DNA of 64,000 nt from Tunturibacter gelidoferens (GTDB taxonomy: Bacteria > Acidobacteriota > Terriglobia > Terriglobales > Acidobacteriaceae), in contig NZ_CP132938.1 of assembly GCF_040358255.1 (NCBI RefSeq), positions 3,286,001-3,350,000 on the forward strand. The letters run 5' to 3'. The translations under genes were made by a program, and so were the position numbers. The notes beneath the pieces are model-generated. The model worked only from the letters and a program-made list of their open reading frames with translations, was not told the DNA's origin and did not search any database. Positions 39,299 to 62,479 of this stretch are shown here, one piece after another (position 1 is the first letter of the stretch; each line of letters starts with the position of its first letter).

Positions 39299-39904
39299 TC
39301 AAGCTTTCATAAACTTCATCGAAGCCGAGTTCATGCAATACCGCAGTCCCGTCGGTGCCGGGCCATCGTCGAAGACGTGCCCTAAATGCCCCTCGCAACG
39401 CATGCACTTTACCTCGGTACGATCTATGCCCAGCGAGCGATCCGCCACCTCCGCGATATTCTCTTTCGCAATCGGCGCCCAGAAGCTCGGCCAGCCGGTG
39501 CCGGATTCGAACTTCGTCTGCGAGTCGAACAACGCGGTGTCACAGCAGATGCAACGAAAGACACCTTTTCCATGCTCGTTCAGGCTGACGCCCGAATAGG
39601 GCATCTCGGTATCCGCCTCCCGCGCGATCTCAAATGAGTTCTTGCCCAACTGTCGAAGCCACTCTCCGTCGGGCTTCACAATCTTTGCAACCGTCTGCTT
39701 CCCAAGGTTCTTCCCGTCATTGCCAAAGTTGACGATCGTGACCTCACCCGGTGTCCCATGCACCGCCACGCTCGCCTCGACTCCGGGAGCCCTCCGCATC
39801 ACAAGCACAGCATAAGAGGCCGCAACCGCAGCGCCGCCGGCCACAAACACTCGTCTTGTCATCTTCCTGGAACCATCGTCGCGGCTGACATCCGAATCAA
39901 ACAT
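39299..39904 (-). CDS. msrB: Peptide-methionine (R)-S-oxide reductase, Tat-type signal
   Basis: Start at ATG 39904, which lies about 25 nt downstream of the -10 of a candidate promoter; an ATG at 39862 is possible but its ribosome site is too close. About 201 residues: MTRRVFVAGGAAVAASYAVL is a twin-arginine-type signal, so the enzyme is probably periplasmic. The MsrB fold shows zinc cysteines (CICC and CMRC), EGHLGHVFDDGP, and the active-site RYCMNS near the end. It repairs methionine R-sulfoxide. The promoter motif links it to the oxidative/metal-stress genes at 58-61 kb. Confidence 0.9.
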   Translation of the reverse strand: MFDSDVSRDDGSRKMTRRVFVAGGAAVAASYAVLVMRRAPGVEASVAVHGTPGEVTIVNFGNDGKNLGKQTVAKIVKPDGEWLRQLGKNSFEIAREADTEMPYSGVSLNEHGKGVFRCICCDTALFDSQTKFESGTGWPSFWAPIAKENIAEVADRSLGIDRTEVKCMRCEGHLGHVFDDGPAPTGLRYCMNSASMKFMKA

Positions 39905-39928
39905 AAGGAGACCCCAGGCTTCTACTAT

Positions 39929-39956
39929 GCGACGGGAGCAATCAAAAAAGGTTACA
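39929..39956 (-). promoter_or_regulatory. Candidate ECF-type promoter of msrB
   Basis: TGTAACC at 39956-39950, 15 nt spacer, CGTC at 39934-39931, reading toward msrB, which starts 25 nt further on. CCTGTAACC precedes a T-rich spacer. It is the same motif as at three other sites near 58-60 kb. Confidence 0.6.
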
Positions 39957-49963: not shown

Positions 49964-52105
49964 ATGAAACGCACACTTCTTCCTGGTCGACCGTATCCGC
50001 TTGGTGCGACTGTATCGAGCAAAGGCACAAATTTTGCTATTTTTTCAGAGGGTGCGACCCGGGTTGATCTTTGCTTCTTCGATGCTTCGGGGAAGCAGAC
50101 TGATTGTGTGACACTGCGTGAACGAACTGCTTTCGTGTGGCATGGACTTGTTCGTGACATCAAAGCCGGGCAGCTTTATGGGTACCGGATCGACGGGCCT
50201 TGGGAGCCTGAACGCGGTCATCGGTTCAACCCAAACAAGCTGCTGGTCGATCCCTATGCCGAGGCGCTTTCGGGACAGGTTGACTGGAAGAAGCCGATCT
50301 TCGCGCATGACGTTGCCTCTGGAGATGATCTGAAAATGGACACGCAGGACAGCGCCGACGGTGTTCCGAAGTGTGTCGTGGTCGATAGCAAATTTGACTG
50401 GGGGGATGACCGCCCACCTGAGACTCCGCTTGCTGACTCGGTTATCTACGAGATGCATGTGAAGGGCTTCAGCATTCGAAATCCCAGGGTTCCGGAGAAG
50501 CTTCGCGGGACCTACGCGGGGCTCGCGTGCGAGCCAGGCATCGACTACTTGAAGAAGCTTGGCGTGACCGCGGTGGAGTTGTTGCCGATTCATCATTTCA
50601 TCGATGAGGGGCCCCTGGTGGATAGGGGACTGGTGGACTACTGGGGATACAACACGCTTGGGTACTTCGCTCCGATGTCCCGCTACAGTTCGTGCGGGGA
50701 TACCGGTGGTCAGGTGAACGAGTTTAAACACATGGTGAAGGCGCTGCACGCCGCCGGCATCGAGGTGATCCTTGACGTGGTTTACAACCACACCTGCGAG
50801 GGCAATCAGCTTGGTCCGACTTTGTGCTGGAAGGGAGTTTGTAACACGACCTATTACAGAGTGAATGAGGAGAATCCTCGTTACTACGTGGACTACACGG
50901 GTACGGGTAACACCTTGAACGTGCGAAATCCGCAGGTGTTGAAGATGCTGATGGATTCGCTGCGCTACTGGGTTACAGAGATGCACGTCGATGGTTTTCG
51001 CTTTGATCTTGCGGCTACCCTTGCGCGGGAGCTTCATGATGTGAGCCGGTTGTCATCTTTTTTCGACACGATTCACCAGGACCCTACGCTCGCTGATGTG
51101 AAGCTAATCGCGGAGCCGTGGGATGTTGGCGAAGGGGGTTATCAGGTGGGGCAGTTTCCTGTTCTTTGGGCAGAGTGGAATGGGAAGTATCGCGATACGG
51201 TGCGCCGGTTCTGGAAGGGTGACGGGGGCCAGCTCTCGGATCTTGGAAACCGGCTTACCGGATCAAGCGATCTTTATCAATACGACGGACGGAAGCCATA
51301 TGCGAGCATCAACTTTGTCACGGCCCATGATGGATTTACGTTGTGCGATCTGGTGAGCTACAACCAGAAGCACAATGAGGCCAATGGAGAAGGCAACAAG
51401 GATGGCTCGGACAGCAACGACTCCTGGAACATGGGCGTGGAAGGCCCAACGGATGATGAAGGGATCAACCTGTTGCGAGAGAGGCAGACGCGAAATTTTA
51501 TGACTACGCTGATGCTCTCGCAGGGCGTGCCGATGCTGAGCGGAGGCGACGAGATTGCGCGGTCGCAGAGGGGAAATAACAACTGCTACTGCCAGGACAA
51601 CGAGCTTACCTGGCACGACTGGAATCTGGATGAACCACGTAAGCGGGTGCGTGACTTTACGAGTCAACTGATCCACTTCCGTTTGAAGCACCCGAATCTG
51701 CACCGGCGGAAATTTTTCCAGGACCGTGAGATTCGCAGGAAGGGCGAGGACCTGATTATCAAGGATGTCGCATGGTTTAATACCGACGGCAACCAGGTCT
51801 CCGACGAGGTTTGGAATACTGAGTGGAACCGCTCAGTGGCTGTGCTGCTGAACGGACAGACGCTGCAGGTGACCGATGAGGACGGCAACCCGGTCATCGA
51901 CGACAGTTTTTTTCTGGTTGTGAACGCGGCCGAGGGCGGCGTCGTCTATATGCTGCCCGCATCGCCTTCCGGGAAGCCGTGGTGTCAGGTGATCGATACC
52001 GAGAATATCGACAATCCTTTTGCCCGCATGGAGGTTGAGGAAAAGATCATCGTTGGAGGTCGAGCACTGAAGCTGTTCAGCGATGGGTCTATTTCAGCGA
52101 ACTAA
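49964..52105 (+). CDS. glgX: Glycogen debranching enzyme GlgX
   Basis: A 713-residue GH13 debrancher. It starts LPGRPYPLGATVSSKGTNFA (CBM48-type N-domain), with GYNTLGYFAP and the catalytic regions VILDVVYNHTCEG (I), GFRFDLAATLARE (II; Asp nucleophile), LIAEPWDVG (III; Glu acid) and FVTAHDGFTLCDLVSYN (IV). It hydrolyses alpha-1,6 branches, as in GlgX/TreX. Its stop overlaps by 4 bp the stop of the large GH13 gene on the other strand. It probably handles glycogen or maltodextrin. Confidence 0.94.
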   Translation: MKRTLLPGRPYPLGATVSSKGTNFAIFSEGATRVDLCFFDASGKQTDCVTLRERTAFVWHGLVRDIKAGQLYGYRIDGPWEPERGHRFNPNKLLVDPYAEALSGQVDWKKPIFAHDVASGDDLKMDTQDSADGVPKCVVVDSKFDWGDDRPPETPLADSVIYEMHVKGFSIRNPRVPEKLRGTYAGLACEPGIDYLKKLGVTAVELLPIHHFIDEGPLVDRGLVDYWGYNTLGYFAPMSRYSSCGDTGGQVNEFKHMVKALHAAGIEVILDVVYNHTCEGNQLGPTLCWKGVCNTTYYRVNEENPRYYVDYTGTGNTLNVRNPQVLKMLMDSLRYWVTEMHVDGFRFDLAATLARELHDVSRLSSFFDTIHQDPTLADVKLIAEPWDVGEGGYQVGQFPVLWAEWNGKYRDTVRRFWKGDGGQLSDLGNRLTGSSDLYQYDGRKPYASINFVTAHDGFTLCDLVSYNQKHNEANGEGNKDGSDSNDSWNMGVEGPTDDEGINLLRERQTRNFMTTLMLSQGVPMLSGGDEIARSQRGNNNCYCQDNELTWHDWNLDEPRKRVRDFTSQLIHFRLKHPNLHRRKFFQDREIRRKGEDLIIKDVAWFNTDGNQVSDEVWNTEWNRSVAVLLNGQTLQVTDEDGNPVIDDSFFLVVNAAEGGVVYMLPASPSGKPWCQVIDTENIDNPFARMEVEEKIIVGGRALKLFSDGSISAN

Positions 52106-55100
52106 GGTTTGGGCGTAGTGGGTTCGGGGCGTCTCTTTGGGGCAGCTTTCTTTTTAGCGGATGATTTTGTTTTGGGAGCTGACTTCTCATTCGGAGCGGG
52201 GGCCGGTGTCAGCTCGGGGGAGCTGGCTTGTATCTCTTCGCTCATTGCGATTGGTTCAGGACTGAGATAACGGTCCAGATTGTAACCAGCTTTCTTTGCG
52301 GAGACGCAGGAGTCTATAGCGGCGGCTTCCAGCTTCGCGAGCGAGTCGACAGAGACAGGGGTCTGTTGTGCAGTTTTTATTAGCGCGGGAAGTTGGAGCC
52401 AACCGAGTAGTTCTTCAAATCCTTCCTTGTTGAAGTAAGTAGCGCCAGAGGACTCGTTGACGCCTGTGAGCCATCGAACGTCTGGATCGGACCAGAATTT
52501 TTCGGTCTTGGCTGCGGCTGGAGAGATGTCAGTTTGAGACAGCAGAATTCTTACGCGAGCAGCAGCGCGCCAGGTGTTTTCTCCTTCCATCCCGATGGCG
52601 CTGAATGTCTCTGATAAAGCAGAACGCAGCTGGAGCTTGTCGAAGAGATCCGCCTGATCTTTATGAGGAAGACTACTCAGAGTGATCCAAGCCAGAATAG
52701 GAGCCCAGATTTGTTCCGTATGATTGGGTGCTTTGCTAGCGGGTAGAAAGCTGGTCACTGCAGGCGGCAGGGTAGATGAGAAGTCTTTGACGATTGAGAT
52801 GAGATGGAGGGCCGCTTTCGTCAAGCTCTCGCAGATGTCCTTATAGGTCAGGGGCGGAGGGGGTTCGGTTGTGAGGGAGGACTCGGCCTCGGCCTCGGCT
52901 GCGGAGGCGTGCGGGGTGGGATCTGCGTTTTCGACGGGTAGAGTGTGGAGCACATTTTCAAAGAAGCGCTGACTGCATTTCACGAATGGCTGCAATCGGG
53001 GGTCAAGGGCAAGTTGTTCGGGGTGCGTGGCAGAGGCACTGTTGACTTTTTCTGTGGGTGATTTGGCGTCAAGGAGTTGCTGTTGAGCTTTCTCCTTATG
53101 GTTTGCGAATGATCTCTCGCCTGCTTTCGGTGCAGCGGGCTTCGTCGCGATCGATACGGTCTCGTTAGCTGCAAGCTCCGAGGCAACGGTTGCGAATGCG
53201 CGAATGTGGCTTTCGCTGAGAGCCTGGCGGAAGGCTTCGTGCAACGGGCGCAGGCGAAGTTTGGAGAGCGCCTCTTCGACGCTGTAGACGCCGGCGCCGT
53301 TGAGTGCGTCGTAGAGCTGATCCCAGGGTTGATCGACTGTGGCGTGAAGCTCGCGCCAGTTGAGCAGGACTGCATATTGATATCCGCGGAGATCGACGGT
53401 GAGGCCGGTGTGGTGGAGATCGGTGCTGCGGCGGAGATATTCGAGACCGTGGGCGGTGTCGCGGTAGGCGAAGAAGGTGAAGTAGTTGTAGGGGAGGTCG
53501 AGTCCTTCGGAGAGACTTCTCTGGCGAAGGTGGCCGGTGGCTTTGTCGACCGAGGCTGCGGAGAAGTGGATGGTGCCGCGAGTGCTGCCGTAGCTGTTGT
53601 TGTAGAGGATGATGGCGCGCTGGCCGTGGGAGCGGTTGGAGTAGGCGAAGACGTTTTCGTCGACGGTGCCGTGGTCGGTCCAGAAGTCGTAGAGGACGAA
53701 GTTGGTGCTCTCGGCGAAGAGACGCCGATTTTTTAGCAGAGGTGCGATCTCATGTTGGTGGCGGGCTACGAGGTGGTCGTTGGGCCACTCTTCCATCTTG
53801 GCTTGTTTGAATTCCATGCCGTAGCGCTCGGTATAGCCTTCGATCTGGCCGTGACCGAACATGGGCAGGCCGGGGAGCGTGGCCAAGAGGGTGCAGACGC
53901 CGAAGTACTTGTCGCCGGAGCCGAACTGGTCGATGGCGGTGCGCTCGTCAGGATTGCTCATGAAGCTGACGTAGCGTTTGAGGATGTCGGGGTCGAACTC
54001 GATTGTCTTTTTTAAATAGGAGCGGTACTTTGCGTTCTCTTCATCGCGGAGCATGTTCATGAAGGCGCTGTTGTAGACACGATGCATGCCAAGGGTGCGG
54101 ACGAAGTAGCCTTCGAGGAGCCAGAAGGCTTCGGCGAGGAGGAGGGTGCCGGGGACCTCGACGGCGACTCGGTCGACGACCTCGCGCCAGAACTCGTGAG
54201 GCATGAGGGAGTCGAACTGTTCCTGGGTCATCGCGTTTTCGGCGCGTGAGGGGATGGAGCCGCCGGTGCCGGGAAGAGGGAACCAGAGGCGCTGGACGTG
54301 GCGTTTGGCGAGGACCATGGCGGCGTCGAAGCGGATGATGGGGAAGAGGCGAGCGACGTGAAGGATGACCTGGATGACGTGCTCGCGAACGGCGGCTTTG
54401 GAGTAGTCGAGTTGCGCGGTGTCGTTCCAGGCGAAGGTGGTGCCGTCGTTGCCGTGATACATGTAGCGGGTGGCTCCGTCGCGATGATGGCGGAGGCGGA
54501 AGACTACAGCGGCGTCGGACTGGTCGTAGTAGTGGTCTTCGATTTTGATTTCGACGCGGCTGTCGGTTGAGAGGTCGGGGCCTTCGAAGCGGTAGACGGG
54601 GAAGGGGCTCTCCCAGCGGTAGAGGAACCAGTCGGGATTCTCGATGACCCAGTTGGAGTCGATGCCCATGTGGTTGGGGACCATGTCGCTGGCGAGGCGG
54701 ATGCCGGTTCGGGCGGCACGGTCGCGGAGGTTTTCGTAGGCATAGTTTCCGCCGAGGTCTTCGGCGATCTGGTACTCCTTGAGGGAGTAGGCGGAGGCGA
54801 CGGCGTCGGTGTGTCCGCGCAGGCGCTTGATGGTTTGGGAGGCGACGCTGCGCTCCCACAGGCCGATGAGCCATAGGCCGGTGATGCCGCGGTCGGCGAG
54901 TAGGCGCAGCTCTTCGTCGGGGATCTGGTCGAGGCGGTGAATGTGGCGGAGGTATTTTTTTGAGAGCTGCTCGAGCCAGACGTAGGTGCTCTTGGCCATG
55001 AGGACGACGGTGGGCATCCAGGCCTGGTCGGCGCTGAAGGCTTCGTACTCGTTGAGGGGGGCCTGGTAGTCGTGGCCGTAACGGCGTTGTCGGGTGCCGT

Positions 55101-55974
55101 CGGGGCCGGTGATGTACTCGTCTTCAAAGCCGATGTACTCGTCGCCGACGAAGCCTTCGCCGCCGCGGCCGGGTGCTCCGTGGCGGTATTGGTCGGGGCC
55201 GGGGGGGTGGAAGCGCATCCAGATGGCGAGGTCTTCTTCGCGAAGGACGTCGATGGCGAGGAGGACGCGGCGGAGGTCTTCGCCGAGGTATTTTGGCCAG
55301 TGCTCGCGGATGTAGTCGAGTTGGCCGGTGAGGGAGTCGGGCGAGGCGAGCAAGGGAGCGCGGAGGGCGTCGAGGAGGCTCCCGGCTTCGGGCGAGATGG
55401 GTGGGCGGGTGGTGAAGTAGTTGGGGAAGGCGGCGGTGACGGTTTGGTAGATCGTCTGCTGCTTGAGGGGAGTGTCTTCGAAGAGTTCGCGGAAGGGAGT
55501 GAATGCGGGGTTGATGTTCGCCAGCCAGAGGAGGAGGAGCTCTTCGAGGGCTGCTTCGCGATTGGGCAGGCCGTCGGTTGTGCCGTTGAGCCATTGGGCC
55601 GGGGTGAGCTCGCCGCGATAGACGGCCACGTTGGGAAACTGGCTGGTGAAGGTGAGGAGGAGGCGTTCGATCTCGGCGGGAGTGGCGTGACCGGTGAACC
55701 AGTGTACGGCCTCGGCGAAGACTGCGGGATCGATCTCCTTGCGATAACGGGCGATCATCGCGTGGTTGAGCTCGTCGATCAGGCCCATCGCGAAGAGAGC
55801 GCCGGCGTTTACGACTCGAGTTGGATCAGTCTGTTGGGTGCGCAGATCCTGGAGCTGTTTTGCCAGTTTTCTGCTTGCAGCGACGTTGCCGAAGACGATG
55901 TTGCCCGTGAAGTTGAAGAGCAGATCGTCCATGTCCAGTTTTTCTCGGAGAGCGCGGGAGATGTGAAATTCCAT
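52102..55974 (-). CDS. Very large GH13 (alpha-amylase family) protein
   Basis: A 1290-residue protein. The N-terminal about 330 residues are helical and unlike known amylases. A GH13 barrel follows: region I IRLASDMVPNHMG (about residue 430), region II IRFDAAMVLAKRHV (about 553, Arg-x-Asp nucleophile), region III LLLAEAFWLLEG (about 615, Glu acid). Region IV reads FMSNPDERTA, so the usual His of NHD is Pro and may alter the specificity. It ends in a long low-complexity Ala/Pro/Ser part and a Lys-rich tail (KTKSSAKKKAAPKRR). No signal is seen. It faces glgX and may form or trim alpha-glucans. Exact activity unknown. Confidence 0.8.
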   Translation of the reverse strand: MEFHISRALREKLDMDDLLFNFTGNIVFGNVAASRKLAKQLQDLRTQQTDPTRVVNAGALFAMGLIDELNHAMIARYRKEIDPAVFAEAVHWFTGHATPAEIERLLLTFTSQFPNVAVYRGELTPAQWLNGTTDGLPNREAALEELLLLWLANINPAFTPFRELFEDTPLKQQTIYQTVTAAFPNYFTTRPPISPEAGSLLDALRAPLLASPDSLTGQLDYIREHWPKYLGEDLRRVLLAIDVLREEDLAIWMRFHPPGPDQYRHGAPGRGGEGFVGDEYIGFEDEYITGPDGTRQRRYGHDYQAPLNEYEAFSADQAWMPTVVLMAKSTYVWLEQLSKKYLRHIHRLDQIPDEELRLLADRGITGLWLIGLWERSVASQTIKRLRGHTDAVASAYSLKEYQIAEDLGGNYAYENLRDRAARTGIRLASDMVPNHMGIDSNWVIENPDWFLYRWESPFPVYRFEGPDLSTDSRVEIKIEDHYYDQSDAAVVFRLRHHRDGATRYMYHGNDGTTFAWNDTAQLDYSKAAVREHVIQVILHVARLFPIIRFDAAMVLAKRHVQRLWFPLPGTGGSIPSRAENAMTQEQFDSLMPHEFWREVVDRVAVEVPGTLLLAEAFWLLEGYFVRTLGMHRVYNSAFMNMLRDEENAKYRSYLKKTIEFDPDILKRYVSFMSNPDERTAIDQFGSGDKYFGVCTLLATLPGLPMFGHGQIEGYTERYGMEFKQAKMEEWPNDHLVARHQHEIAPLLKNRRLFAESTNFVLYDFWTDHGTVDENVFAYSNRSHGQRAIILYNNSYGSTRGTIHFSAASVDKATGHLRQRSLSEGLDLPYNYFTFFAYRDTAHGLEYLRRSTDLHHTGLTVDLRGYQYAVLLNWRELHATVDQPWDQLYDALNGAGVYSVEEALSKLRLRPLHEAFRQALSESHIRAFATVASELAANETVSIATKPAAPKAGERSFANHKEKAQQQLLDAKSPTEKVNSASATHPEQLALDPRLQPFVKCSQRFFENVLHTLPVENADPTPHASAAEAEAESSLTTEPPPPLTYKDICESLTKAALHLISIVKDFSSTLPPAVTSFLPASKAPNHTEQIWAPILAWITLSSLPHKDQADLFDKLQLRSALSETFSAIGMEGENTWRAAARVRILLSQTDISPAAAKTEKFWSDPDVRWLTGVNESSGATYFNKEGFEELLGWLQLPALIKTAQQTPVSVDSLAKLEAAAIDSCVSAKKAGYNLDRYLSPEPIAMSEEIQASSPELTPAPAPNEKSAPKTKSSAKKKAAPKRRPEPTTPKP

Positions 55975-56556: not shown

Positions 56557-57444
56557 TCATAGGTTGTTTGCGGGTGGTTTGCAGAACCAGCCGAGTTCCG
56601 AGGCGTGGGCGAAGTACTCCTGAATTTTCGCCGCCTGATCTTCGGGTGAGAGGGAGCTTCCGCGGAAGGCGGCTTCGAGTGCGTGGCCGAGCAGAGTACC
56701 GCTCTGAAGGGCGGAGAGAAGGCGGAAGGCCTCGTGGTCTATCCGCCGGTAGTAGACGGAGTTGTCGTAGCGATGGACTGCAAGGTGGATTTGAGAGCGG
56801 CGCATTGCGGGAAGACGGGTTCGCCTGGCTTGCTTGCGCTCCGTGACGGCGTTGCTCATGATGTCGCTGGGTGCGGTCTGGCGGTGAACGGCCAGGACGA
56901 GCTCGTCGACGGGATAGCGGAGGTCCAGCAGTTGGAGATGGGGCTGAAGGAAGAGAGGGGAGGCAGCGCCGAGATCTCCGAAGTCAGCAGCGGTGAGGGG
57001 AGCGAGGTCGGCTCCGTCGAAGGCTTCTACGTAGGCCCACTCCAGGCGGGCTATGTCGAGGAGGAGATCGTGACGCCGGGGAGAGAACTCGGGGTGCGAT
57101 TCGAGCCACTTCGGCAGCTTGGAGCCGAGATTGCGAAGGGTGAAGGAGGTGGATGGATTCTCGCGGAGATAGGCGAGGATCATCGTGTCAAACTTTTTGG
57201 CTCCGAGGATGGCGCCGATGGCGGGGAAGTCCTCCGAGACGGCTCCTATGACGCGGAACCAGTATTGGCGGTTGTAGATTTCGAGGCGATCGAAGGAGGA
57301 GAGGCGGTCGTTGGGTTTGATGTAGGTGCTGGCGAGGTCTTCGGTTGATTTGCCGTCGGAGGTTGCTGGCTGCATCTGAAAGTCGGGCGTGAGGGGACGC
57401 GTTACGTCTTCGGCCATGCGGCGTTGCAGTTCGAGAAGGTTCAC
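56557..57444 (-). CDS. HvfC/BufC-type peptide modification partner (DUF2063)
   Basis: The GTG at 57444 overlaps the upstream DUF692 stop as GTGA, so translation is coupled. The 295-residue product begins NLLELQRRMAEDVTRPLTP, the DUF2063 N-terminal helix pair; IYNRQYWFRVIGAVSEDFPA is the family signature, and DIARLEWAYVEAFDGAD opens the second domain. Relatives bind the precursor leader and assist the MNIO oxidase. It is the third gene of the operon precursor, oxidase, partner. Confidence 0.9.
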   Translation of the reverse strand: MNLLELQRRMAEDVTRPLTPDFQMQPATSDGKSTEDLASTYIKPNDRLSSFDRLEIYNRQYWFRVIGAVSEDFPAIGAILGAKKFDTMILAYLRENPSTSFTLRNLGSKLPKWLESHPEFSPRRHDLLLDIARLEWAYVEAFDGADLAPLTAADFGDLGAASPLFLQPHLQLLDLRYPVDELVLAVHRQTAPSDIMSNAVTERKQARRTRLPAMRRSQIHLAVHRYDNSVYYRRIDHEAFRLLSALQSGTLLGHALEAAFRGSSLSPEDQAAKIQEYFAHASELGWFCKPPANNL

Positions 57445-58334
57445 GAGTGAACCACCTCTCTGACGTCTGCTTCTGCTGCTCTCTCCGAGGGGATGAGAGA
57501 TTCTGCTGGTGTGAGATATTGCGTGGCCTTGAGGGCTTCGGAGTGAACCTCGTCGAAGGTCGGGATGTTGTCGTCCCATTCGAGGAGAGTTGCGGTGGGG
57601 CCGACACGCTCAATGGCCCGGGCGTAGAGATGCCATACCGGATCGAGTACGGGATGATCGTGGGTGTCGAGGATGTATTTCTCGAACTTCGAGTGACCGG
57701 CGATGTGAATTTGCGCTACACGCTCGGCGGGAACACTGTTGACGTAGTCGAAGGGGTTGAAGCCGTGATTCTGAGAGGAGACGTAGATATTGTTGACGTC
57801 GAGCAAGATGCCGCAGTCGGCGGCTTCGACGACTTCATTGAGGAACTCCCACTCGGTCATCTGGGACTCATGAAACTCGGCGTAGCTGCTGACGTTTTCG
57901 ACGGCGATGGGTATTTCGAGGAAGTCCTGGACCTCGCGGATGCGCGCGGCTGTGGCCTTCACCGCTTCGAAGGTGTACGGCATGGGGAGGAGGTCGTGGG
58001 TGTATCGGCCGTCTACGCTACCCCAGCAGAGGTGATCGGAGAGCCAGGGTGTTTTGGTGCGACGGGTGAGGGTCTTGAGGCGCTTGAGGTGCTCGCGGTC
58101 GGCTGGCTGGGCGGAGCCGAAGTACATTGAGACGCCGTGCTGGACCACGCGATAGCGTTCGAGGATCTGGTCGAGGATCTTTAGCGCGCGACCGCCGTCG
58201 ACCATGTAGTTTTCGGAGATGATCTCGAACCAGTCGACGACGGGCTTTTCGGCGAAGATGTGGTCGTAGTGCGGGACGCGAAGGCCGATCCCTACGCCGT
58301 AGTCGCTGAAACCGTTGAAGCGATTGGCTGGCAT
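57441..58334 (-). CDS. MNIO-family (DUF692) multinuclear iron peptide oxidase, bufferin maturase
   Basis: About 297 residues from the ATG at 58334 (GGGGAG just upstream). TIM barrel of the DUF692/MNIO family: WFEIISENYMVDGGRAL, VVQHGVSMYFGS, LSDHLCWG, LLPMPYT, AVENVSSYAEF, GILLDVNNIYVSSQNHGFNP and IHIAGH hold the iron-binding His, Asp, Glu and Asn. Members oxidise Cys in RiPP precursors, giving thiooxazole or oxazolone-type products that bind copper. It lies 78 nt after the precursor gene and overlaps the bufC gene. Confidence 0.94.
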   Translation of the reverse strand: MPANRFNGFSDYGVGIGLRVPHYDHIFAEKPVVDWFEIISENYMVDGGRALKILDQILERYRVVQHGVSMYFGSAQPADREHLKRLKTLTRRTKTPWLSDHLCWGSVDGRYTHDLLPMPYTFEAVKATAARIREVQDFLEIPIAVENVSSYAEFHESQMTEWEFLNEVVEAADCGILLDVNNIYVSSQNHGFNPFDYVNSVPAERVAQIHIAGHSKFEKYILDTHDHPVLDPVWHLYARAIERVGPTATLLEWDDNIPTFDEVHSEALKATQYLTPAESLIPSERAAEADVREVVHS

Positions 58335-58412
58335 GTCTCCCCTTTTGTTAAATGATAGTGAAGATGACTGGAGGCTTGAAGGGATAACCAAGCCTCCAGA
58401 CAGGGGAGGTGC

Positions 58413-58697
58413 TTAGGCGAGCGAAGGCTTGGAGCCGTCGGTGGCGCATCCGCCCTTGCCCTTGCAGTCGTTCTTGCCGGGGTGCTTTCCGCCGCCCTGG
58501 CCCTTACAGTCGTTCTTGCCCTTGCAGGAGTGCTTCGGAAGATCGGGCTTGTCCTGGGCGATGAGGACGCCGGCGTGAACGGTGGTCGTGGGGGTGTTGT
58601 TTGGCTGCGCGGTCTGGGCATTCATACGGACAGCGGTGCCGCCCAGCAGACCTGCGAACGCGGCGGCCAAAGCGAGAGATTGTGCTGAATTCTTCAT
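58413..58697 (-). CDS. Bufferin-type (BufA1-like) RiPP precursor
   Basis: Start at ATG 58697 (GGAAAGG about 10 nt upstream). A 94-residue peptide: signal or leader with ALAAAFAGLLGG, then a linker (VHAGVLIAQDKPDLPKH), then a Cys/Lys/Gly-rich core: SCKGKNDCKGQGG and NDCKGKGGCATDG. Four Cys occur in CKGxNxC-like pairs, as expected for copper-binding bufferins; the core Cys are the likely targets of the MNIO oxidase downstream. Being exported, it would chelate copper in the periplasm. It is the first gene of its operon. Confidence 0.85.
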   Translation of the reverse strand: MKNSAQSLALAAAFAGLLGGTAVRMNAQTAQPNNTPTTTVHAGVLIAQDKPDLPKHSCKGKNDCKGQGGGKHPGKNDCKGKGGCATDGSKPSLA

Positions 58698-58853
58698 ATT
58701 GATGAGCCTTTCCTGGTTGAGCCGCACGCGAGAACGCGCCGGACGTGGATGGTGGCTACGCTGATCGTAGCAAGAAGTTAACGGCGAAACTCCCTACTTC
58801 GGATTGCATTCGCGGCAAAGATCGTTCGCCGATTTTTTCCTTGCCGCTGATTC

Positions 58854-58879
58854 GACTACGTCAAGGCACAAAGGTTACA
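58854..58879 (-). promoter_or_regulatory. Candidate ECF-type promoter of the bufferin operon
   Basis: TGTAACC at 58879-58873, 15 nt spacer, AGTC at 58857-58854, pointing at the precursor gene. It is half of a divergent pair: the opposite arm starts the peroxiredoxin promoter, so an 11-bp inverted repeat (AAAGGTTACAG/CTGTAACCTTT) is formed at 58870-58880 and 58912-58922. Confidence 0.6.
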
Positions 58880-58922
58880 GCGACAGTGGAACATCGGAAG
58901 CCTATCACTCTCTGTAACCTTT
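58870..58922. repeat. 11-bp inverted repeat with 31-bp spacer
   Basis: AAAGGTTACAG at 58870-58880 and its exact reverse complement CTGTAACCTTT at 58912-58922. It comprises the two outward -35-like elements for the bufferin operon and the peroxiredoxin-like gene. Confidence 0.8.
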
Positions 58923-58938
58923 TGGCGCGAGGGTACTC
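58913..58938 (+). promoter_or_regulatory. Candidate ECF-type promoter of the peroxiredoxin-like gene
   Basis: TGTAACC at 58913-58919, 15 nt spacer, ACTC at 58935-58938, then the ATG at 59009. Same layout as at msrB and doxX. Confidence 0.55.
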
Positions 58939-59008
58939 AAACCGGGACACGTTGGATAAATCTGAAGGACGGCGACGCCAGAGCGTGGCGCGTCGTAGGA
59001 GTTGAAGA

Positions 59009-59587
59009 ATGATTGCCAGGAATTTCTTGGTATTGGCTTTAGGTGTATTGATGATTGGTATCGCACCGCTGGCGACTGCGGAGACGCCGGAGGTGGGACA
59101 GAAGGCGCCGGAGTTCAGCCTGTCGACTCCGGATGGACACCCTCTGAGCCTGTCGGAGTTTACTTCGAAGGGGACGGTGGTGCTGGTTGTGCTTCGGGGA
59201 TTTCCCGGTTACCAGTGCCCGTATTGCCAGAAGCAGGTGCATGACTTTGTGACGAACGGCGAGAAATTTGTGACGGCAGGCGCGGAGGTGATGCTGGTCT
59301 ATCCCGGACCTCCGGCCGCCCTCGATCAACATGCCAAGGAGTTCCTGGCGAAGGAAAATCCGCTACCGGCTAATGTGCACCTGGTCGTCGATCCCGACTA
59401 TGCTTTCACGAATCAGTATGGACTTCGCTGGGACGCGCCGCACGAGACTGCTTATCCTTCAACCTTTCTGATCGATCGTCAGGGCGCGGTTTTCTTCAAG
59501 AAGGTGAGTCACGAGCATGGTGACCGAACGACCGCGGCGGATGTGCTCGCTCAACTCGAGCACGAAAAGTCTGCCCACTCACATTAA
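59009..59587 (+). CDS. Periplasmic peroxiredoxin/thioredoxin-like protein
   Basis: A 192-residue exported protein. AGGAG lies about 7 nt before the ATG. A signal peptide (VLALGVLMIGIAPLATA-ET) is followed by an AhpC/TSA-type fold: VGQKAPEFSLSTPDGHPLSL, then GFPGYQCPYCQKQV with a CPYC dithiol, then VVDPDYAFTNQYGL and a His-rich C-terminus (HEHGDRTT, KSAHSH). It could reduce peroxides or disulfides in the periplasm. Divergent from the bufferin operon and sharing its promoter motif, it fits defence against copper or oxidative damage. Confidence 0.85.
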   Translation: MIARNFLVLALGVLMIGIAPLATAETPEVGQKAPEFSLSTPDGHPLSLSEFTSKGTVVLVVLRGFPGYQCPYCQKQVHDFVTNGEKFVTAGAEVMLVYPGPPAALDQHAKEFLAKENPLPANVHLVVDPDYAFTNQYGLRWDAPHETAYPSTFLIDRQGAVFFKKVSHEHGDRTTAADVLAQLEHEKSAHSH

Positions 59588-59670
59588 TGCTTTATTGACG
59601 GCTGATTCAAGACGCCCGGGGAGATATATTGTCGTTTTGAAGCGATCTCTCTTCGAGTTCCGGTGGAGAC

Positions 59671-59696
59671 TGTAACCAATTCCATCGTCGTGGTTC
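59671..59696 (+). promoter_or_regulatory. Candidate ECF-type promoter of doxX-sigma-anti-sigma
   Basis: TGTAACC at 59671-59677, 15 nt spacer, GTTC at 59693-59696. The doxX start follows at 59808. It would make the sigma factor autoregulated. Confidence 0.5.
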
Positions 59697-59807
59697 TAAG
59701 TACATGCAGGTCCCAACAGGTTCCTGGCCGAGCCTGCATTTATTGGGGGCCTGCGCAAGATTGCTCAGATTTATTCACGCTCGCTGGAGTGGAGAGAAGA
59801 GGTTGTG

Positions 59808-60281
59808 ATGAAAAAACTGCTTGAGGTGTATGCACGGTTTGCAGCATTGGCTTCTTATCTCCAGTCCCCATTTCTCTTGGTGGTGCGTCTCTACTGGGGA
59901 TGGCAGCTTGTCCAGAGCGGATGGGGGAAGCTGCATCATCTGGATAAGATCACCGACTACTTCACGAGCCTGAATATTCCGCTTCCTGCTATAAGTGCTC
60001 ACTTCGTGTCGGGGTTGGAGTTCGTTGGAGGACTGCTGCTGATTGTGGGGCTCGGCTCGCGGCTTATCGGATTGATGCTTACGGTGAATATGCTGGTGGC
60101 ATACTGGACTGCGGATCGAGAGGCGCTCTTTGCGGTCTTCTCAGATCCGGGCAAGTTCTATAACGCTGATCCATACACGTTCCTGTTCGCGGCGGCGATG
60201 GTTCTGGTGTTCGGTGCTGGGTTGTTCTCCTTAGATGCGTTGTTGAAGAGGCGTTATCGAGGATGGATCGAGAAGCAATGA
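59808..60281 (+). CDS. DoxX-family membrane protein
   Basis: A 157-residue protein with four hydrophobic segments: LLVVRLYWGWQLVQSGWGKL, FVSGLEFVGGLLLIVGLGSR, LIGLMLTVNMLVAYWTA and FLFAAAMVLVFGAGLFSLDA. The DoxX family is often found in MNIO bufferin loci (as GigD/BufD, from memory). ATG 59808 has AGAGG 5 nt upstream, and its TGA overlaps the sigma factor's ATG (ATGA). It is the head of a three-gene operon with regulator genes. Confidence 0.88.
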   Translation: MKKLLEVYARFAALASYLQSPFLLVVRLYWGWQLVQSGWGKLHHLDKITDYFTSLNIPLPAISAHFVSGLEFVGGLLLIVGLGSRLIGLMLTVNMLVAYWTADREALFAVFSDPGKFYNADPYTFLFAAAMVLVFGAGLFSLDALLKRRYRGWIEKQ

Positions 60282-60898
60282 CCGCAATCTCCGAGAACAG
60301 GAATGAAGCTCAGATGATCGCCTCCATCCTCGCAGGCAATACGCACGAGTTTCATGATCTGATCCAGCCGTATGAGCGAAGCGTCTACAGCATGGCGCTG
60401 TCGATGTTGCAGAACGAGGCGGATGCAGAGGATGCGGCGCAGGAGTCGTTCCTCAAGGCGTTCCGCAACCTTGAGAAGTTCCGCGGCGAGGCAAAGTTCA
60501 GCACATGGCTGATCAGCATTACGCTGAACGAGGCTCGGAGCCGGCTGCGGCGGAAGAAGACCGCGAAGACGGAGTCGCTGGATGAGTTGCAGGAAGGCGG
60601 GCATGTGTCGCCGGCGTTGCTGCGAGACTGGCGGGAGATTCCCTCCGAGGCCCTGGAGCGGCAGGAGGTGCGGCTGTTGCTACAGGATGCGATTGGCGAT
60701 CTGCCGCTGATCTATCGGGAGGTCTTTGTGCTGCGTGATATGGAGGATTTGAGCGTCAACCAGTCGGCGGCGGCGCTTGGTATTACTGTTGCAGCGGCAA
60801 AGGTGCGGTTGCATCGCGCGAGGCTGATGTTGCAGAAGCGGCTGGCTCCGCAGTTGAGACAGGTGCTGCCGAAGCGGAGGTGGTTCCCATGGTTCTAG
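60278..60898 (+). CDS. ECF-type RNA polymerase sigma factor
   Basis: About 206 residues starting at ATG 60278, which overlaps the doxX stop as ATGA; an in-frame ATG at 60263 is less likely. Sigma region 2 (LIQPYERSVYSMALSMLQNE, DAAQESFLKAFRNLEKF, STWLISITLNEARSRLRRKK) and region 4 (DLPLIYREVFVLRDMEDLSV, AAALGITVAAAKVRLHRARL) are intact with no region 3. The anti-sigma gene overlaps its end by 10 nt. It is probably the factor that reads the CTGTAACC promoters upstream of the four units. Confidence 0.92.
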   Translation: MTAISENRNEAQMIASILAGNTHEFHDLIQPYERSVYSMALSMLQNEADAEDAAQESFLKAFRNLEKFRGEAKFSTWLISITLNEARSRLRRKKTAKTESLDELQEGGHVSPALLRDWREIPSEALERQEVRLLLQDAIGDLPLIYREVFVLRDMEDLSVNQSAAALGITVAAAKVRLHRARLMLQKRLAPQLRQVLPKRRWFPWF

Positions 60899-61164
60899 AG
60901 TGCAAGCATGTGTGGGAGCATATCTCCGGCTATCTGGATGGGACGCTGGATGCAGCGGTGCTGGAAGAGGTGCAGAAGCATCTTGAACACTGCGAGATTT
61001 GTTCTGCGATTCTGGATTCGACGCGCAATATTCTGATTTTGACCGCAGATGAGCGTGTCTTTGAACTGCCGCTGGGTTTTAGTGAACGGCTTCATGCGAG
61101 GTTGGAGGCAGAGATGCGGGGTTTTACTTACAAGCCCTCCGGGTCGGGCGAGGGCGATACCTAG
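60889..61164 (+). CDS. Zinc-finger anti-sigma factor (zf-HC2)
   Basis: A 91-residue protein from the ATG at 60889 (GGAGG 8 nt upstream). CKHVWEHISGYLDGTLD then HLEHCEICSAIL: His-x3-Cys-x2-Cys zinc site of the zf-HC2 anti-sigma domain. No membrane span, so it is cytoplasmic and may sense redox or metal through the zinc. It overlaps the sigma gene by 10 nt. It probably holds the sigma factor inactive. Confidence 0.9.
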   Translation: MVLECKHVWEHISGYLDGTLDAAVLEEVQKHLEHCEICSAILDSTRNILILTADERVFELPLGFSERLHARLEAEMRGFTYKPSGSGEGDT

Positions 61165-61625
61165 GAACCGCGATGAATCATGGAGTGAGTGATCCACTCG
61201 GCCGCCACCAGGATGAGGGTGATGACGGCGAGCGCGATCTGGAGGTGTTCCGAGCGCCGTTGGCTGGGAGTAGCTGGCTGGGTGCGCCACTGCGAGGAAG
61301 GGCGGGTGCGCAGGGAGCGAATGCGCCAGATGACGTAGAGATTAACGAAGGAGCCAAGGGTCGCGGCTATCATCATGGGGATTCGGATAGCGTCGCGATG
61401 GAAGCCGGTAGGGGGTGGGTGGATGCCAAAGGTGGCCGACGCGAGGGCGCTGAGGCCGATGGCGACTCGAACTCCGCTGAGGGCGATGACGGCTGTGCAG
61501 GCACTCTGCAGAACGATGAAGACGAGGCTGGTGGCGGTGACGAGCCAGGTTTTTCTGCTCTCCGGTGGGGGAAGGGCCGACGGTGGCTGGGGCGAGACAG
61601 TTCGGGAGGTTGTCTGAAGGGCCAT
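61161..61625 (-). CDS. Three-span membrane protein of unknown function
   Basis: A 154-residue protein with a Pro/Ser-rich N-terminus and hydrophobic segments TWLVTATSLVFIVLQSACTA, AIRIPMMIAATLGSFVNLYV and HLQIALAVITLILVAAEWIT. The stop codons of this gene and the anti-sigma gene share the palindrome CTAG at 61161-61164. No family is recognised. It is possibly part of the sensing or envelope setting of the ECF block. Confidence 0.7.
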   Translation of the reverse strand: MALQTTSRTVSPQPPSALPPPESRKTWLVTATSLVFIVLQSACTAVIALSGVRVAIGLSALASATFGIHPPPTGFHRDAIRIPMMIAATLGSFVNLYVIWRIRSLRTRPSSQWRTQPATPSQRRSEHLQIALAVITLILVAAEWITHSMIHRGS

Positions 61626-61717: not shown

Positions 61718-62479
61718 TCACCACGGACGGCTTAGAGGGAAGATCAGCTGCCTGACTGGACAGTCGGGCGACTCGAGTGCGATTGCTCCCGCGGCCTCGA
61801 TCCCTAAGGATAAATCGCTGACGAAGAACAACTTCCCTTGATCATCTGGTGATTCGCTGATGCGAACAGGGTGCAGGCTTACTGATTCGAACGATATATC
61901 GAAGGAGGCCAGGGAGGCGATGAGGCCGCGGCCGTCCGCTTTGAGAACTGCTTCCTTGCGGGTCCAGTAGCGATAGAAGGTCTTGATACGAGCCTGTGGG
62001 TAGGAGATTGCAGCCAGGGAACGGCTTTCTTTCTCCGTGAAGTTATGGTGGGCGACCTCCATGATGTCGGTCGACCGGTCGAAGTACTCCACGTCCACTC
62101 CGACGGAGCCGCTACGGGTTAGCGCGATGAGGATTGTGTCTTTGGAATGAGCTACGTTGAAGGCGATACTGGGGCCGTTGCGATGGGAGAGCTGAGGTTT
62201 TCCGTGAACTCCGGTTGTGATCGATAGAGAGAGGGGATCAAGCCCCGAAGCGTTCCCGAGAAGGATTCTCAGACATGCCCGTCCGACGGAGAAATGTTCC
62301 TGGACCCGTCCCGTTCGGCGACGGCTGGCTTGGAGCTGTTCGGCGTGAGTGAGAAGCGGGGCGAAACGGTCGTGCAGTCCTGTGGCACCGGCCAGGTCGA
62401 TCCGCCAGAGTTGCACTTCGCCGGCCTCCAGTGGCGGGAGGGTATCGACCTGTTTCCAATCACTCGACATAAGAGACAA
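61718..62479 (-). CDS. 4'-Phosphopantetheinyl transferase (Sfp type)
   Basis: A 253-residue Sfp-type enzyme that loads phosphopantetheine onto carrier domains. VGRACLRILLG, SIAFNVAHSKDTILIAL, GVDVEYFDRSTDIME (Mg site) and FYRYWTRKEAVLKADGRGL are the family motifs. It is divergent from the NRPS gene, so it probably activates that synthetase's carrier domain. Confidence 0.94.
   Translation of the reverse strand: MSLMSSDWKQVDTLPPLEAGEVQLWRIDLAGATGLHDRFAPLLTHAEQLQASRRRTGRVQEHFSVGRACLRILLGNASGLDPLSLSITTGVHGKPQLSHRNGPSIAFNVAHSKDTILIALTRSGSVGVDVEYFDRSTDIMEVAHHNFTEKESRSLAAISYPQARIKTFYRYWTRKEAVLKADGRGLIASLASFDISFESVSLHPVRISESPDDQGKLFFVSDLSLGIEAAGAIALESPDCPVRQLIFPLSRPW

Follow-up and report, generated by a model that had tools for sequence, protein, structure and literature searches.

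The window analysed here is a 64,000-nucleotide stretch of the Tunturibacter gelidoferens genome (5.58 Mb, 2 contigs). It contains a locus for a bufferin-type peptide next to the genes for an extracytoplasmic function (ECF) sigma factor and a zinc-associated anti-sigma (ZAS) protein (Table 1). Three genes are located on the minus strand (bufA, bufB and bufC, encoding 94, 297 and 295 amino acids) and four are divergently oriented on the plus strand (prx, doxX, ecf and the anti-sigma gene, encoding 192, 157, 206 and 91 amino acids). The reading frames overlap by 4 nt in bufB/bufC (GTGA) and doxX/ecf (ATGA), and by 10 nt in ecf/anti-sigma. A preliminary description of the window, made from the sequence alone, had placed these seven genes in one block (56557-61164) coupled by overlaps. 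All seven genes and the overlaps were found as described, but the block should also take in the adjoining gene for a membrane protein, and the msrB gene, which lies outside it, is a probable further member of the regulon.

Table 1. Genes and predicted promoters of the bufferin locus and of msrB, in positions of the window (scores in bits).
Feature	Coordinates	Strand	Support
bufA, Buf2-like precursor, 4 Cys	58413..58697	-	NF050166 19.4 (cut-off 60); signal-peptide-like N-terminus by eye
bufB, MNIO enzyme	57441..58334	-	NF050167 355.7 (cut-off 310); PF05114 364.8 (cut-off 25)
bufC, DUF2063 partner, GTG start	56557..57444	-	PF09836 55.6 (cut-off 27.2)
prx, peroxiredoxin-like/thioredoxin-fold protein, CPYC, exported by look	59009..59587	+	AhpC-TSA PF00578 82.7 (cut-off 26)
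doxX, HvfX-like membrane protein	59808..60281	+	DoxX PF07681 72.6 (cut-off 23.6)
ecf, ECF sigma factor	60278..60898	+	Sigma70_r2 and Sigma70_r4_2 passed; PDB kin SigW, RpoE
ZAS anti-sigma, predicted soluble	60889..61164	+	zf-HC2 41.3 (cut-off 22.2); C5, H31-x3-C35-x2-C38
Helical membrane protein, undescribed	61161..61625	-	orthologues in 28/29 ECF-ZAS loci
msrB, exported (twin-Arg-like) methionine sulfoxide reductase B	39299..39904	-	SelR 158
ECF-type promoter of bufABC, TGTAACC-N17-TCGAA	58851..58879	-	motif search
ECF-type promoter of prx, TGTAACC-N17-TCAAA	58913..58941	+	motif search
ECF-type promoter of doxX-ecf-ZAS, TGTAACC-N17-TCTAA	59671..59699	+	motif search
ECF-type promoter of msrB, TGTAACC-N17-TCGCA	39928..39956	-	23 nt before first ATG of the frame

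The order bufA-bufB-bufC recurs in 13 loci of the genus (the window counted) and in 77 of 80 named loci, which argues that the grouping is more than chance; of the remaining three, L078 and L093 end before bufC and L114 gave no bufA match. The named loci are the best 80 of 546 relatives, so that rates among these top-scoring loci are not rates for the phylum; many are metagenome-assembled and some are the same records as genus loci. Over 275 columns, the MNIO protein of the window and its counterpart in Edaphobacter lichenicola M8UP22 (L042) were 99% identical; by NCBI ranks, M8UP22 is a Tunturiibacter of the Acidobacteriaceae. The nearest named MNIO relatives are acidobacterial, as the earlier placement of the host in the Acidobacteriota implied.

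BufB scored above the cut-off of the bufferin maturase model NF050167, BufC above that of DUF2063, the family of PME-type 1 partners, and DoxX above that of its own family (Table 1), which bears out the proposed bufferin-type MNIO locus. The cut-offs of the HvfC model NF050145 (44 bits for BufC, 142 needed) and of NF050144 (62.3 bits for DoxX, 80 needed) were not reached. In a profile of the 13 genus sequences, the segment EWDD of BufB was aligned with ERDF of 3BWW, an MNIO of Histophilus somni. Lys-Cys enzymes are reported to have Phe at the position after the catalytic base, and Cys-Lys enzymes to have an Asp there that is modelled in contact with the substrate Lys (PMC13097082; here and below, citations refer to the accessible parts of the papers). 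BufB carries Asp at this signature position where Lys-Cys enzymes have Phe, and is assigned by its sequence to the Cys-Lys group, with the corresponding chemistry as a prediction. A distant MNIO (30% identity) with a long open frame and extra C-terminal sequence was noted in genome G020 (L029:9733-10245).

The precursor BufA contains four Cys in total, arranged in the motifs SCKGKNDC and NDCKGKGGC, and its N-terminus resembles a Sec signal peptide (signal peptides were judged by eye throughout). The two similar Cys pairs that had been pointed out are both present, but the two sites of thiooxazole formation read from them found no direct support; Lys follows three of the four Cys, which is the Cys-Lys motif of the subfamily. 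BufA matched the BufA2 model only weakly (Table 1). BufA2 has 6 (or 12) conserved Cys instead of 4, so the suspicion of an unusual precursor was justified. Four six-Cys precursors of congeners also remained under the BufA2 cut-off (36-46 bits), and the four-Cys precursors scored 14-21 bits. Of the Buf2 precursors, 90% are reported to have 6 Cys and the others 12, with modifications described as still unidentified (PMC12452194), and six-Cys DUF692 clusters were reported for Gammaproteobacteria of Antarctic soil (PMC8692599).

Within the genus, 8 of the 13 loci with a precursor have a four-Cys core and 5 have a six-Cys core of the form CKGxNxCKGxGGC...NGCKGKNSCKGKGGC. The precursor was readable in 79 of the 80 named loci (none for L114), 13 of which have the four-Cys core (L042-L051, L061, L075 and L111; for L047 and L048 the script counted 5 and 6 Cys, as residues beyond the core were included). 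Inspection by eye showed that all 13 lack Cys 3 (last in the first unit) and Cys 4 (first in the second unit); in L057 Cys 4 alone is absent. The suggested MNIO phylogeny was run as a quick BufB tree of 81 rows (10 rows with other core types were left unlabelled), in which the four/six-Cys state switches three times and a four-Cys clade of 11 rows is supported (SH-aLRT 99). From these sequences, Cys 3 and Cys 4 were probably lost together, in three lineages, loss being inferred over gain. Such a joint loss would fit a disulfide between Cys 3 and Cys 4; alternatively, deletion of the inter-unit linker, which the two residues flank, would remove both. It is very improbable that the four-Cys precursor is a decaying bufferin heading for loss, even though two of six Cys are gone and the match to BufA2 is lower than in the four six-Cys congeners. 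The four-Cys form has been retained throughout the 11-row clade, its motifs are near-invariant, bufB and the promoters are conserved, and the identical pair of Cys is absent at three places in the tree.

The bufABC genes, prx, the doxX-ecf-ZAS operon and msrB, the last about 17 kb from the locus, are preceded by copies of one ECF-type promoter sequence (Table 1), which agrees with the earlier proposal that the block, including the ECF/anti-sigma pair, is co-regulated. Three sites matching TGTAACC-N17-TCnAA were first spotted by eye. With one mismatch allowed, four matches were obtained in the window (0.51 expected), a number reached in none of 100 shuffles. A search of the whole genome with spacers of 15 to 19 bases gave 11 matches, and the three with a 17-base spacer all lie at the bufferin locus. 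After inspection of relatives, the consensus was widened to TGTwACy-N17/18-TCnmA. This pattern matched the window exactly four times, before bufA, prx, doxX and msrB, as compared to a mean of 0.225 matches in first-order Markov sequences (maximum 3 in 40 runs) and one match altogether with seven other spacer ranges.

The association of the motif with the switch genes was determined in the 77 named loci in which bufA was recognised and the sequence in front of it was long enough, a locus being linked when an ECF-ZAS pair lies within 4.5 kb. The widened motif was present before bufA in 22 of 29 linked loci, as compared to 3 of the 48 remaining ones (Fisher p 2.4e-10, uncorrected for kinship). 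The spacer was 17 bases in 19 linked and 3 unlinked loci and 18 bases in 3 linked and no unlinked loci, and every other spacing from 10 to 25 was found at most once; spacing 17 on the opposite strand (4 linked loci) would fit divergent genes with a site of their own. In principle, the motif could be read by a different sigma factor or by an activator, with ecf as a mere neighbour, and its presence in three unlinked loci and before prx in G007, a genome without a ZAS orthologue, fits this possibility. We consider it unlikely, as the motif tracks ECF-ZAS linkage and also precedes the ecf operon itself, both in G011, where bufferin is absent, and in G003, where the ECF-ZAS pair lies on another contig and the motif is nevertheless kept before bufA, doxX and the distant ecf.

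Motif matches within long reading frames were dismissed as chance or as sites of another regulator, and so were matches with palindromic arms that precede a gene for an NAD(P)-binding-like protein (G001, G023). A TGTAACCaaTGGTTAC-type palindrome near position 1501 of L154 and L163 (G001 and, with a changed spacer, G023) is perhaps the operator of another regulator. Motif matches were also seen at NDH-2-like (G000, G002, G024) and ATP-grasp (G000) genes, and an ECF-type motif lies upstream of a methyltransferase-like gene in G003 and G002 (L166, L191).

The anti-sigma protein has one Cys followed by H-x3-C-x2-C with the spacing of RsrA and MseR, and is encoded next to an ECF gene, which identifies it as a ZAS protein with predicted zinc binding. 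The ligands C5, H31, C35 and C38 are present in 30 of 30 aligned sequences; those of Neisseria MseR are C4, H30, C34 and C37, in a correspondence with RsrA stated to be exact (PMC2893595). The score against the RsrA equivalog was 32.5 bits (cut-off 62.5 not reached), a PDB sequence search gave chance sirtuin matches only, and the protein belongs to zf-HC2 and not to the NrsF membrane anti-sigma factors. The 80 named loci comprise 63 from acidobacteria, of which 29 have the ECF-ZAS pair linked to bufferin, in 14 different arrangements (some of them cut by contig ends), and 17 from verrucomicrobia, none of which has this linkage. In 41 genomes around the window, orthologues of BufB (at least 80% identity) and ZAS (at least 66%) were both present in 12, BufB only in 1 (G018, 74% complete), ZAS only in 2 and neither in 26 (Fisher p 1.4e-7, again uncorrected for kinship). 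Besides its Buf2-like ECF-ZAS cluster, the congener G023 carries a canonical Buf1 cluster (L030:9102-13044) with DUF2282, MNIO, DUF2063, DoxX, another ECF and a true NrsF, and thus a single genome can hold switches of both types.

The gene for the membrane protein converges on the anti-sigma gene. Orthologues (at least 100 bits) were found in 28 of 29 ECF-ZAS loci and in none of the 51 other named loci, as far as their stretches extend; relative to the ZAS gene they lie downstream on the opposite strand (25), or on the same strand upstream (2) or downstream (1). The residues S41, C43, H76, R81-P83, W113, R114, Q129, E143 and H147 are constant in 29 of 29 sequences, and S41 and C43 are conserved at 90% or more in a 23-row alignment, in which some rows start later. 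An AlphaFold2 model showed three long helices (mean pLDDT 79.8, pTM 0.51); a PDB fold search with this model gave no match with E below 0.001 (best 1.7), and a Pfam search gave no convincing family. The protein accompanies ECF-ZAS in G011, where bufferin is absent, and in G003, where it is distant, and for this reason more likely belongs to the switch than to peptide making. The locus is flanked by a phosphopantetheinyl-transferase-like gene (61718-62479; ACPS 56.8 bits) and, on the minus strand (52102-55974), by the gene for a 1290-amino-acid protein that by eye resembles an alpha-amylase-type enzyme.

The msrB product, read from a later ATG, passes SelR and contains a twin-Arg segment, and in G024 the motif lies at the identical distance from msrB. 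A redoxin gene followed by msrB has the motif upstream in G001, G002 (where the redoxin has a DipZ-like membrane part) and G018; no motif was found upstream of the redoxin-msrB operons of G012, G015, G017 and G023. Overall, the widened motif precedes 2 of 14 exported msrB genes and 1 of 16 non-exported MsrB paralogues used as control. In G017 (88% complete, 7% contaminated), ecf, doxX and a fragment of ZAS lie on one 7-kb contig together with a DUF1223 gene that has the motif, with msrB accompanied by redoxin and DipZ-like genes, and with an apparent bufA start that has a motif variant. Across species, the evidence for msrB is weak and consists of the sites in the window and in G024, of those before redoxin-msrB in G001, G002 and G018, and of the linkage in G017.

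For prx, the motif was present in 6 of 7 orthologues examined (two of which, L017 and L043, were drawn from bufferin loci, and one, with the motif, came from G007) and absent in G010. The peroxiredoxin-like protein assigned to the block does have the CPYC motif and passes AhpC-TSA, and its model (mean pLDDT 79.3, from a four-row alignment) has a peroxiredoxin/ResA-type fold; it is accessory, however, being bufferin-linked in only 2 of 80 named loci, and no prx was found in the 20.9 kb covered of L042, the closest named relative. A DUF1223 gene lies between doxX and bufA in G015 and adjoins ecf in G003. The strict motif was found before DUF1223 in 4 of 11 genes in ZAS-positive and 0 of 5 in ZAS-negative genomes, and before DinB_2 in 4 of 11 and 1 of 14, respectively. 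Omitting the rows found through the motif itself (DUF1223, L196; DinB, L186, L174 and L194), these numbers become 3 of 10 and 0 of 5, and 2 of 9 and 0 of 13. The window genome has the one-letter variant CGTAACT-N17-TCTAA before its DUF1223 gene. These data are only suggestive of DUF1223 and DinB_2 genes as regulon members. A DinB_2-like gene with TGTAACy-N17-TCCAA close before its start occurs in five genomes (L231, L232, L186, L174 and L194), the spacers having diverged.

We conclude that the locus probably encodes a Buf2-like bufferin system of the Cys-Lys type under its own ECF sigma/ZAS anti-sigma switch. The motif is common to bufA, prx, doxX-ecf and msrB and goes with the ECF-ZAS pair, so that a small regulon comprising bufferin, DoxX and the repair of thiols and methionine in the envelope is most likely under the control of the sigma factor. 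Several results weigh against this interpretation. The score of BufA is far under the BufA2 cut-off, and ECF-ZAS is present without bufferin in G011 and G020. A genome-wide search with TGTAACy-N17-TCnAA gave six matches, three of them off the locus, and the reversed control gave five. Seven linked loci lack the widened motif, with TGTAAC or TGTGAC and a near -10 recognised by eye. The consensus was widened post hoc; the stricter first pattern, with a laxer linkage rule, was found in 8 of 30 as compared to 2 of 50 loci, and kinship inflates all association tests.

In the mechanism that we propose, the soluble ZAS protein would hold the sigma factor in the resting state, until metal or thiol stress removes its zinc or oxidises C5, C35 or C38. 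The freed sigma factor would read the TGTwACC-N17-TCnmA promoters directly, turning on its own doxX-ecf-ZAS operon, bufABC and genes for thiol/methionine repair in the envelope, which would be prx and msrB in the window and, in some relatives, DUF1223 and redoxin-msrB. Cys-Lys cysteines of BufA would be oxidised by BufBC, and the exported peptide may bind excess copper or a similar soft metal. It is conceivable, although we favour it less, that the ECF-ZAS pair is a general regulator of envelope oxidative stress (hypochlorite, disulfide), the bufferin serving mainly in thiol/redox stress or for another metal with copper secondary. The ZAS is of the RsrA/MseR kind, the putative co-targets are methionine sulfoxide reductase (Msr), redoxin and DUF1223 genes, the cassette is found without bufferin in G011 and G020, and H. 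influenzae RpoE2, with a ZAS anti-sigma, answers hypochlorite and influences the hvf cluster (PMC7907618). On the other hand, MseR is reported to be unresponsive to peroxide or diamide (PMC2893595), and the bufferins studied to date bind copper and, with SigF, have a role in copper tolerance (PMC12452194, PMC8224329).

Extending the proposal of a bufferin system with its own ECF-ZAS switch, we speculate, with more doubt still, that the sigma factor, the soluble ZAS and the membrane protein (with its conserved C43, H76 and H147) might form a three-part metal/thiol sensor, not previously described, that coordinates a minimal class of bufferin. The Cys 3-Cys 4 pair would then be a dispensable disulfide staple of six-Cys Buf2, and after its loss the metal-binding core would consist of the Cys-Lys motifs.

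With the probable switch, control by a sigma factor would also apply to Buf2-like bufferins, in one of the major phyla of soil, and these bufferins would be tied to Msr/thioredoxin-type repair of the envelope. Neisseria, Haemophilus and Caulobacter show such a tie with different parts. This suggests a recurring design in which metal binding is coupled with repair of the metal's oxidative damage. The natural four-Cys forms are ready-made mutants for establishing which Buf2 cysteines get modified.

Control of an MNIO cluster, DoxX and Msr by a single ECF factor has been reported for Neisseria sigmaE, H. influenzae RpoE2 and Caulobacter SigF (PMC2893595, PMC7907618, PMC3511200, PMC8224329). Like Neisseria sigmaE-MseR and H. 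influenzae RpoE2-HrsE/hvf, the window has an ECF factor with a small ZAS, the ligand spacing being that of MseR, and a DoxX/MNIO cluster and Msr genes that are probably governed by one sigma factor. Those systems belong to another phylum, make EGKCG-type precursors and, in the accessible parts of the papers, are not mentioned to have a small membrane partner such as that of the window. Caulobacter SigF-NrsF (Buf1) shares with the proposed regulon an ECF-controlled bufferin, DoxX and a periplasmic methionine sulfoxide reductase, and the -35 half of its promoter (GTAACC-N16-CGAA; PMC3511200) equals that of the window. It differs in the N16-CGAA part, in its six-helix membrane anti-sigma NrsF, in having Buf1 precursors and in MsrPQ instead of MsrB. 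The Buf2 bufferins (BufA2B2C2; Cys-Lys captophorins) resemble the window in the BufB-family MNIO with Asp for Phe at the substrate-contact site, the DUF2063 partner, DoxX and the CKGxNxCKG repeats; the window precursor departs from them in having 4 Cys instead of 6 or 12 and in missing the BufA2 cut-off, and its cluster in having linked ECF and anti-sigma genes. Sigma genes were reported for Buf1 and not for Buf2 clusters in the accessible part of PMC12452194, the main text of which contains no word beginning with 'acidobact', and a literature search without subscription papers gave no title or abstract describing an ECF-ZAS-controlled Buf2 cluster. On this basis, the window differs from the known systems in the shortened precursor of its Buf2-like bufferin, in having a ZAS in place of NrsF and in an additional membrane protein.

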